DNA of 64,000 nt from Panorpa germanica (Eukaryota; Arthropoda; Insecta; Mecoptera; Panorpidae): NCBI GenBank assembly GCA_963678705.1, contig OY783212.1:1-64000 (forward strand), in the 5' to 3' direction. The position numbers and the translations under genes are program-made. How positions within the stretch are numbered: position 1 is the stretch's first letter; every line of letters begins with the position of its first letter. The notes beneath the pieces are model-generated. The model did no database searches. It was not told the DNA's origin and was given only the letters and a program-made list of their open reading frames with translations. Shown in pieces: positions 28,166 through 32,402 of the stretch.

Positions 28166-30103
28166 CTGCGGCCTACAGTATTATCTAAATCCTCATACAA
28201 TAAACATCGCAATGCTTCTACGACTACAAGCACTACGTCCAAAGAAAGGACGGTAATTCAACATGAATACGACGCCGTAGTAGTAGGTGCTGGAGGTGCA
28301 GGACTACGTGCCGCTTTCGGACTTGTAGCTGAGGGATTTAAAACGGCTGTCATTACTAAACTGTTCCCCACAAGATCGCACACAGTTGCTGCACAAGGGG
28401 GGCTAAATGCTGCTTTGGGTATGATGCATTTTTATATATATAATAAGATTATCGCGGAGCAGAATATGTGGTATACCTGTAACGATGGAACATACTTGTC
28501 GGACTCAAGTGTTTTTTTACAAATGTTTATGATATATAAAAGATTAAAGACTAAAAATGATACCCATATATTTCAGGCAACATGGAAGAAGACAATTGGC
28601 AATGGCACATGTATGATACGGTAAAAGGATCCGATTGGTTGGGAGATCAAGATGCCATCCATTACATGACCAGGGAGGCGCCGCACGCTGTTGTAGAATT
28701 AGAAAATTATGGAATGCCTTTCTCCAGAACACCTGAAGGCAAAATTTATCAAAGAGCTTTTGGTGGACAAAGTTTAAGGTTCGGTAAAGGAGGTCAGGCA
28801 CACAGGTGTTGCGCTGTAGCTGACAGGTAACTTGATATTACTGTTATTATCAGAATACTGAATGTGTTGACGAAATATTTTATTTGGATAATTCATTGTT
28901 GTTGCAGAACTGGACATTCCCTACTGCACACACTCTACGGACAATCTTTAAGATACGACTGCAATTATTTTGTTGAATATTTCGCGCTGGATTTGTTAAT
29001 GGAAGACGGAGAGTGCAGGGGCGTCATCGCCTTGTGTCTTGATGATGGTTCAATTCATAGGTATTTATAATCTTTTATTTATGTGCTTCTTAAATTATTT
29101 ATGTTAACAAATATTTTTATACCAATTAGGTTCCGTGCTAAAAATACGGTTTTAGCAACCGGTGGTTACGGTCGAGCCTGGTTTTCTTGTACATCCGCAC
29201 ACACGTGTACTGGAGATGGCACTGGAATGGTAGCACGAGCTGGTCTTCCATCTCAGGACTTAGAATTTGTACAATTCCATCCCACAGGTAACGTAATAAT
29301 TAGTTCTAGGATTATAATCGTAGAAATATAATATATTGAAATAGAGAATGTTTTGAACAGGTATTTATGGAGCGGGATGTCTCATCACGGAGGGGTCCAG
29401 AGGAGAAGGTGGCTTTCTGGTCAACTCTCAGGGAGAGAGATTCATGGAACGTTACGCTCCTGTTGCAAAGGACTTAGCATCACGGGATGTCGTCTGTAGA
29501 TCGATGACGATAGAAATTAATGAAGGTATTTTTACTTTTAACACAGTTTTGGATCTTCTGATAGTTAACAGCATTAATTCATTGTACAATTTGGTATCAC
29601 CAGGTCGTGGAGTCGGATCTTTAAAGGACCATGTGTACCTTCAGCTTCATCATTTACCAGCTAAACAATTAGCTTCTCGACTTCCTGGCATTTCTGAAAC
29701 AGCTATGATATTTGCGGGTGTTGATGTCACATGTGAGCCAATTCCAGTTTTACCGACTGTACATTATAATATGGGAGGGATTCCAACAAACTACAAAGGC
29801 CAAGTGTTAACGCATCAAGATGGACAAGATAAGGTAAGAATACCATGCCATCTTGTTCATTTGTCACTGTATTGCTCTTGTAGTGTTTCGACTATTGACT
29901 TTATTTAAATGTTATTTCGATTCCATAATTTTTAGATTGTCCCAGGGCTCTACGCTGCCGGCGAAGCTGGATGTGCCTCCGTCCACGGGGCCAATAGACT
30001 TGGGGCTAATTCACTTTTAGATTTGGTTGTCTTTGGAAGAGCCTGTGCTATTGCAATTGCTGCAGAAAATAAACCAGGAGAAAAATTTGGACCTCTTAGT
30101 CAG
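28166..30103 (+). CDS. SDHA: Succinate dehydrogenase flavoprotein, exons 1-7 (set A)
   Basis: The subunit oxidises succinate to fumarate with covalently bound FAD in respiratory complex II and the TCA cycle. Exons (my numbering): 28166-28418, 28577-28826, 28908-29060, 29130-29287, 29361-29525, 29604-29833, 29936-30103, all with GT-AG borders and compatible phases. The protein shows the dinucleotide-binding [11 protein letters not shown], the FAD-attachment motif [10 protein letters not shown], then [57 protein letters not shown] and [20 protein letters not shown]. No disabling change occurs in these exons. The start codon and most of the targeting peptide must be in an upstream exon not found: the first exon opens in phase 0 after a TTTCAG acceptor. 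Exon 7 ends in phase 0, so it could join the damaged exon at 30717 or the intact exon at 32001. Confidence 0.93.
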
Positions 30104-30421
30104 GTAATATATTTTTAATAACTTGTTATTTTTTAAATCACTCTACTAAGCGTGTTGAATATTTAAAAGAATTCCTGAATATATCCTGAAACATAACTCT
30201 TAATATGATTGTAATATTAGTTGGGTAGAAAGTTGTAAGATGGGGTATCAAGAACATCTTCGTTTCATGAATTATTTAATAGGCATTATCTTCCTGTTAA
30301 GGGGAGGATCTTTTTAGAGATTATTTAGTACATCTTAGAAGTTTTAGGAAGATTAAGTTTGTTTGATCTAACTAATTTAATAACTTGCAGCGAAAATATC
30401 TGCTTAAAATATTCAATATAA

Positions 30422-30496
30422 GCCCGGCTAGCTCAGTCGGTAGAGCATGAGACTCTTAATCTCAGGGTCGTGGGTTCTCGAGCCCCACGTTGGGCG
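30422..30496 (+). tRNA. tRNA-Lys(CTT) with a T-loop insertion
   Basis: The acceptor stem (GCCCGGC pairing with GTTGGGC), D arm (TAGCTCAGTCGGTAGAG, a good A box), anticodon arm with CTCTTAA loop and variable region match the usual animal tRNA-Lys(CTT). The T arm is odd: it reads GTGGGTTCTCGAGCCCCAC, two bases longer than the normal GGTTCGAGCC, so the gene is 75 nt instead of 73. This disrupts the B box and gives a nine-base T loop. A run of five T follows near 30501-30505. It lies in the intron after SDHA exon 7, same strand. It may be a dying copy, or a sequence error inflated it. Confidence 0.85.
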
Positions 30497-30716
30497 CTTT
30501 CCTTTTTGGAATTTTTATATTTTAAAAACAAATAATATTTTTTAGATAGTTATTTGCACTTCTTTTTATAACTCATAAAATAGGTTACATTATTAATGTT
30601 CCATTTAATAAATATTCATTAATTTATATCCAGATGCAGAATATTCTTTTAAAATATTGGACAAACATTTTCTTAAGGGATTACTTGAAGTAGACTGTAT
30701 AAGAATTTTTTTACAG

Positions 30717-30922
30717 AATGCTGGAAGTGCGTCAATAGACAATCTAGAGAAACTACGCAATGCGAATGGAGATATTCTACACAGTTTTAGCAACCGGTGG
30801 TTACGGACGAGCCTGGTTTTCTTGTACATCCGCACACCCGTGTACTGGAGATGGCACTGGAATGTTAGCACGTGCTGGCCTTCCATCTCAGGACTTAGAA
30901 TTCGTACAATTCCATCCTACAG
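30717..30922 (+). pseudogene. SDHA: Chimeric SDHA exon: start of exon 8 fused to exon 4
   Basis: After a TTTACAG acceptor the first 67 nt (30717-30783) encode [19 protein letters not shown], the start of SDHA exon 8. At about 30784 the sequence changes without an intron into the last 139 nt of exon 4 ([16 protein letters not shown] to QFHPTG), followed by a normal donor. The fusion is out of frame: exon 8 leaves one extra base, so reading from exon 8 garbles exon 4. The breakpoint has only short homology. It looks like the scar of a deletion between tandem SDHA copies that removed exon 8 to the next copy's exon 4. If spliced in, it would wreck the protein; skipping it keeps the frame. Confidence 0.88.
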
Positions 30923-31222
30923 GTACAAGTGTAGGTGTTATGATATTATCATTCTCTTGGAAAACGAATATATCATACCCGCTAAATATAAATACTACAT
31001 TTATGTTTATTGTGGTTCAAATTATATCAATTCTTGTAAAAGATAAGCTCCAAAAAGTAAAACATCTTATCAATAATTTATATCGCAATTAATTAATGAG
31101 ATTTAATGAATTAATTATCTTAACTCTTAAAGCATTAGAATGATACAATCGCTATTAAGTATTAATCTTTTATTCCATTGCATATAGATAAGGTAATTGA
31201 TTTGAGATATCTCCTTATGCAG

Positions 31223-32402
31223 GTATTTATGGAGCGGGATGTCTTATTACTGAGGGATGTAGAGGAGAAGGTGGCTTCCTAGTGAACTCTCAGGGAGAGA
31301 GATTCATGGAACGCTATGCTCCAAACGCAAAAGATTTGGCGTCTCGCGATGTAGTCTCCAGGTCTATGACTATAGAAATTAATGAAGGTATTATATATAT
31401 AGTTTTATAAAGATTCTAAAAGTTACTTTTGTGATTAAATTTGTATATTTTTTTTATTTTTAAGGTCGTGGAGTTGGTGAACTTAAGGATCATGTACTTC
31501 TTCAACTTCATCATTTACCAGCTGAACAATTAGCTTCCCGACTTCCCGGCATTTCTGAGACGGCGATGATTTTTGCTGGTGTTGATGTCACTCGAGAACC
31601 AATCCCCGTTTTACCAACTGTACATTACAACATGGGTGGATGCCCCACGAATTTTAAGGGGCAAGTTTTAAAACACGAAGACGGCGAAGACAAGGTTTGT
31701 ACTTGTACGACCTAAAAACGAAGTTTCAATATTGCAAGATATACCGCATTAATAATGTTTTAGATTATTCCTGGTTTGTACGCTGCCGGTGAAGCTGGGT
31801 GTGCCTCTGTACATGGAGCAAACAGACTTGGTGCTAACTCACTTTTGGATTTGGTTGTCTTTGGTAGATCCTGTGCTACAGCTATTGCGGCTGAAAATAA
31901 ACCAGGAGACAAGTTTGGATCACTCCGTCCGGTAAAACATTAACTTTTAATGTCACCCCTTTTTTTTCATTATAATATGTTTGTGCCTTATAATTCACAG
32001 ACTGCTGGCATGCCTTCTATTGACAACTTAGACAACTTACGACACTCCAAAGGTGACATTCGCACAGCAGATTTACGTTTAGAACTTCAGCGAACTATGC
32101 AAACTCATGCTGCTGTTTTTAGAGAGGGTACTTTATTACAAAAAGGTTGCGAAAAGACCTCAGAAATTTATGGAAAATTGAAGAACTTGAAAATTTCTGA
32201 CAAGAGTTTAATTTGGAATTCCGATTTAATTGAAACTTTAGAGCTTCAAAATTTAATGTTATGCGCTCGACAAACAATTGTTGCGTGTGAAAATAGGAAA
32301 GAAAGTCGCGGTGCCCATGCTAGGGTAGATTTTAAAGTGAGAATTGATGAGTTTGACTACAGCAAGCCTCTCGAAGGACAAAAGGACTTCAATTATATAT
32401 AA
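31223..32402 (+). CDS. SDHA: Succinate dehydrogenase flavoprotein, exons 5-8 (set B), C-terminus lost
   Basis: Exons 31223-31387, 31465-31694, 31764-31931 and 32001-32402. The first three equal set A exons 5-7 in length (165, 230 and 168 nt) and phase, and differ at scattered codons. Examples are TEGCRGEGG against TEGSRGEGG and [10 protein letters not shown] against [10 protein letters not shown]. The last exon continues with [20 protein letters not shown], the HAAVFREG segment, [12 protein letters not shown] and [19 protein letters not shown], ending DYSKPLEGQ followed by KDFNYI and a stop. Family members go on about 50 residues to a conserved end, which is missing here and has no splice donor leading to it. 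All catalytic-domain motifs look intact. It may supply alternative exons for set A or be a decaying copy. Confidence 0.9.

Follow-up and report, generated by a model that had tools for sequence, protein, structure and literature searches.

Apparent alternative exon blocks in an insect SDHA locus probably represent two broken tandem paralogues

SDHA exons span positions 28166 to 32402 (+ strand) of an insect-like window of 64 kb, which is the whole stretch of DNA analysed here. At first sight they resemble one gene with a duplicated block of alternatively spliced exons. We consider it likely that the locus consists of old tandem SDHA paralogues that were recently broken, and that the apparent cassette is most probably two broken genes. 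The pieces, their order, their reading frames, their divergence and the ends missing within the window can all be read directly from the DNA.

Copy A has exons 1-4 at 28166-28418, 28577-28826, 28908-29060 and 29130-29287, and exons 5-7 at 29361-29525, 29604-29833 and 29936-30103. Copy B has exons 5-7 at 31223-31387, 31465-31694 and 31764-31931. All of them are on the + strand and were delimited by an open spliced translation and GT/AG sites. Exon 8 of copy B, which is cut short, lies at 32001-32402 (+ strand) and was recognized by tblastn together with splice-path and splice-site checks. The initial annotation had described two sets of exons 5, 6 and 7 with the same sizes and phases, and we found the same exons at the same coordinates: their lengths are 165, 230 and 168 nt in both copies, the phases are equal, and the blocks are similar far above chance (78-84% over 173-234 nt). 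The seven spliced exons of set A gave 459 open codons, and exons 5-8 of set B, read with the last base of A4, gave 321. There were no stops in the 780 codons, no frameshifts and no lost splice sites: all 21 dinucleotides at the splice sites of A1-A7 and B5-B8 were intact (acceptors AG, 11/11; donors GT, 10/10).

Seven splice paths were tried. Four remained open to the stop of B8, namely A1-7+B8, A1-4+B5-8, A1-5+B6-8 and A1-6+B7-8. The other three, in which the fused exon was included or both blocks were kept, stopped early at codons 538, 479 and 226. The two in-frame mRNAs proposed earlier, using A5-A7 or B5-B7 with the fused exon skipped, are therefore both open to the B8 stop. The A1-7+B8 chimera has 592 open codons and is recognizable as SDHA, with FAD-binding and catalytic domains (match over residues 10-587 to the solved SDHA chain 6vax_A, E 0). 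In these respects the blocks look as mutually exclusive exons would: they are homologous alternatives in matching phase, and each gives an open frame.

Between the two blocks lies an exon of 206 nt at 30717-30922 (+ strand), which comprises the first 20 codons of A8 and then the 3′ 142 nt of B4, as indicated by tblastn, splice paths and the junction sequence. By tblastn it falls into two pieces, 30714-30776 (start of exon 8) and 30781-30924 (exon 4). It breaks the frame after A7, as the initial annotation had stated, and brings in a premature stop when included. Its splice sites seemed usable by a crude consensus count, which says nothing on preference. The motif ACAG at the A8/B4 join recurs at the matching place in B8, relative to which A8 has one extra base at this point. 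Such a motif would suit joining by microhomology, if only weakly at a length of four bases. A tRNA-Lys (CTT) gene was found between A7 and the fused exon, at 30422-30497 on the + strand (ARAGORN; Rfam tRNA, 55.4 bits). Because the fused exon opens with the beginning of A8 and closes with the end of B4, whole genes most likely were once adjacent here. We also considered a local duplication of the exon block and rejected it on the composition of the fused exon and on the introns: four pairs of A and B introns were compared by blastn and gave no meaningful alignment. Mutually exclusive exons would imply a duplication within one gene with both complete flanks shared. What we found was the fused exon of A8 and B4 parts, and no complete common 3′ end in the window among the matches listed. 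The simplest history would start from two complete head-to-tail genes and a deletion that took out everything between a point in A8 and a point in B4.

Both ends of the gene appear to be incomplete. The homology of B8 stops at ...SKPLEGQK (32384) and is followed by five codons, DFNYI, and a stop; there is no GT donor in 32361-32402. Exon 8 at 32001 had been taken for a full exon. It is indeed in frame after either exon 7, but its C-terminal part is cut off, and because of this cut both in-frame products end 50 residues short of the SDHA C-terminus (Xenopsylla reference). Among 149 homologues, 147 reach the C-terminus, and twelve columns of the tail lost here show at least 98% invariance. A fragment of an SDHA terminal exon with a TAA stop was revealed upstream of set A, at 27136-27219 on the + strand, by a tblastn search with Xenopsylla SDHA, to which it is identical at 22 of 27 residues (E 5e-9). 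When the Xenopsylla tail was searched by tblastn against the whole 64 kb, no terminal exon was seen downstream of B8, and apart from 27136-27219 the matches listed had E values of 0.68 or worse. Between the end of B8 and the start of this terminal exon 23 residues are absent. The fragment could be what remains of a third copy, or the tail of B that has been moved.

For set A, a scan for ATG-to-GT stretches in phase 0 gave nine candidate start exons in 27100-28160, none of them convincing. The best was ATGTTAAAG followed by GT, nine bases at 27903-27911. It lies in repeat-derived DNA directly 5′ of A1 (27718-28106, no strand assigned; blastn and alignment), which matches 61234-61528 (87%) and 37394-37487 (83%) by blastn. 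We did not claim ATGTTAAAG as a start exon because it is within this repeat and the 61 kb copy has neither the ATG nor the GT. Taken as a whole, the locus does not contain a complete SDHA with a start and the conserved C-terminus, as 50 residues are gone and 27100-28160 holds no convincing start. Copy A is without most of exon 8 and the gene end, and copy B is without exons 1-3, part of exon 4 and the gene end. Adjacent paralogues with lost ends are what truncated tandem duplicates consist of.

The two copies are old. Exons 5-7 of A and B differ by 83.5 synonymous and 25.5 non-synonymous changes (Nei-Gojobori), which corresponds to a dS of 1.31, a dN of 0.062 and a dN/dS of 0.048, with 90% amino acid identity. 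Taken singly, exons 5, 6 and 7 had dS values of 1.28, 2.05 and 0.94. Exon 4 is less diverged than exons 5-7 (Fisher test, P about 1e-6): A (29146-29290) and B (30781-30925) are 94% identical over 145 nt, with 6 of 36 synonymous sites changed (dS 0.19). The similarity of exon 4 ends at the 3′ edge of the exon. Gene conversion has probably occurred between A4 and B4.

We also surveyed conserved positions in 149 SDHA proteins of 600-700 aa, retained from 184 after 35 were dropped for length. In 338 columns, at least 98% of these proteins had one residue. Copy A departed from it at 4 of 278 such columns (1.4%) and copy B at 4 of 194 (2.1%), one of the latter falling in the false tail of B. Among the other proteins the 95th percentile was 1.5% and the maximum 2.4%. 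The values of A and B, at the high end, hint at some relaxation, though not at open decay.

Neutral decay of the exons, which the initial annotation had named as grounds for giving up a functional reading, was not seen: the low dN/dS, the absence of stops and the intact splice sites all speak against it. We simulated neutral evolution of the 780 codons together with the 42 splice bases, with mutation weights and an indel rate of our own assumption. The chance of staying intact was 0.035 with indels and 0.2 without at 1% neutral divergence, and 0.0015 with indels and 0.04 without at 2%. The simulation and the dN/dS ruled out a long neutral decay of both copies. Since intact exons were improbable in the simulation, either the break is very recent or selection is still acting. 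The intact frames would fit a recent loss (under about 1-2% neutral divergence), a polymorphic deletion, a chimera in use or a wrong assembly. The word dying in the initial annotation fits the exons less well, since they show no neutral decay; if the break is real, it must be recent.

A tree was built from exons 5-7 to examine the relationships of the copies; its 31 rows were A, B and 29 other SDHA proteins picked by us from the matches listed. A paired with B (95/81) and the pair joined Xenopsylla (100/98). Exons 5-7 of A and of B were each nearest to Xenopsylla, at 90%. For exons 1-4 of A, the identity was 85% to Xenopsylla versus 86% to Sergentomyia and Gryllus, and Xenopsylla ranked only tenth by bits. 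Exon 8 of B was 70% identical to Xenopsylla and 58-69% identical to the seven others compared. The source is an insect, perhaps near fleas, with exons 5-7 carrying the flea affinity. Leu359 and Ser460 are common to B and Xenopsylla, and both are rare states (each 3/149); for this reason the A/B split may predate its placement in the tree.

The SDHA blocks resemble mutually exclusive exon clusters of the Dscam or Mhc type in that homologous exons with the same size and phase lie next to each other and are transcribed in one direction. Unlike those clusters, the alternatives here are three-exon blocks of what appear to be two separate genes; the frame-breaking fused exon and the tRNA gene stand between them, and the gene end is missing. 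SDHA with alternative cassettes was not found among the listed titles and abstract openings on SDHA splicing and mutually exclusive exons, paralogues, SdhAL and flea genomes. Drosophila has an SDHA paralogue, SdhAL, beside SdhA, and the two are complete separate genes. The present locus likewise holds SDHA paralogues in an insect, but its copies are cut. According to PMC7305587, truncated tandem duplicates were already reported for the cat flea. The likeness lies in tandem paralogues of a housekeeping gene, which are unequal in length and have a tRNA gene inside; the difference is that A and B here are old (dS about 1.3; 90% at the amino acid level in exons 5-7). The word succinate does not occur in the main text of that paper.

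The window begins with a satellite array at 1-16479 (443-bp unit, 37.2 copies, 99% match), and pieces of hAT and RNase H come next. Two inverted repeat pairs were found: one of about 600 bp (23604-24204 and 61737-62357, 90%), the other at 21384-21735 and 22363-22714 (97%), with RNase H-like reading frames. At 24658-25142 there is an SRA1-like piece, which covers Pfam domain positions 7-87 of 147 and contains an in-frame TAG. It was matched by 18 of 18 SRA1 homologues at 27-36% identity; none of the eight that carried a species name came from a flea. The rest of SRA1 was not seen, as the C-terminal parts of the 18 homologues had no match in the window better than E 0.53. The region seems to be rich in repeats and to contain broken copies of genes beside a satellite array. 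Immediately 3′ of B8, exon-like open pieces occupy 32446-33437. We took them to resemble a domino/EP400 fragment, presumably, but do not claim this identity, since they had no match in Pfam or PDB. Further along, a short open frame at 45334-45486 encodes C2H2 zinc fingers. The start of a WDR92-like WD-repeat gene lies at 58824-59063 (PDB 3i2n, E 8e-27). An inverted repeat, 94% like its own reverse complement, follows at 59044-59169.

In the history that we favour, at least two, and probably three, SDHA paralogues would once have stood head-to-tail. A and B would be old, and both would have been kept under strong purifying selection. A deletion, which we infer to have been recent, would have begun within exon 8 of A, ended within exon 4 of B and left the frame-breaking fused exon. 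Through further breaks, copy B would have lost its end, and a single terminal exon would have been left on the 5′ side of copy A. The locus as read would yield no complete SDHA, because its products would stop prematurely with the fused exon and would be 50 residues short without it. A working SDHA would presumably be present elsewhere in the genome.

The initial annotation had left a choice between mutually exclusive catalytic exons and two dying copies. The two old genes and their missing ends favour the second. A single SDHA gene that uses A5-A7 or B5-B7, skips the fused exon and makes two flavoprotein isoforms would account for the equal sizes and phases, the open A1-7+B8 and A1-4+B5-8 paths, the dN/dS of 0.048, and the 780 codons and 21 splice dinucleotides without a lesion. 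Nevertheless, we regard it as very improbable. Both isoforms would lack the 50-residue tail with its 12 nearly invariant columns, no terminal exon follows downstream in the window among the matches listed, and no convincing start exon precedes A1 in 27100-28160. Moreover, splicing would have to pass over an exon that breaks the frame and yet has usable sites, and the A8 and B4 pieces in that exon point to two whole genes and not to an exon-block duplication. Weakly against it, no protein was more than 83% or 82% identical to one or the other isoform among the matches listed (best 120 each, clustered, after scoring the 7997 candidates with most shared words). Still less credible is the suggestion that a deletion between old tandem SDHA paralogues has just made one transcribed gene which chooses between the two catalytic blocks and makes an SDHA without its last 50 residues, its output tuned by the fused exon as a poison exon. 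A single working product is also improbable, if slightly less so. One version would be the A1-A7 to B8 chimera, with the fused exon and B5-B7 skipped; its 592 codons are open, but it is without the C-terminus. The other would be a short B product of 375 aa, whose frame is open from ATG 30760 in the B4 part of the fused exon through B8. This product would be without the N-terminal FAD-binding part, and at Xenopsylla position 265 the fused exon has Pro, whereas all 149 homologues have Thr.

An assembly error is unlikely, though it deserves more weight than these. The sequence at A8/B4 and at the gene ends might result from collapse or misjoining, either of two haplotypes or of two to three intact SDHA genes in tandem. 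Every exon is intact, which is how working genes would look; the exon 4 stretch of high similarity begins at the join, where an assembler could slip; and the upstream terminal exon is what a neighbouring copy would leave. On the other hand, the joined parts differ (exon 8 with exon 4), and the flanking SRA1-like piece is broken too. The window also resolves a satellite array of 16.5 kb, which would point to long reads.

We therefore return to broken tandem paralogues as the likely explanation of this locus. If the break is real, it would be a snapshot of old, long-selected tandem paralogues of a core respiratory enzyme being purged by deletion before decay at the base level. The locus is also a caution: a mere fusion of two genes can look like an alternative cassette when the sizes and phases of their exons agree.
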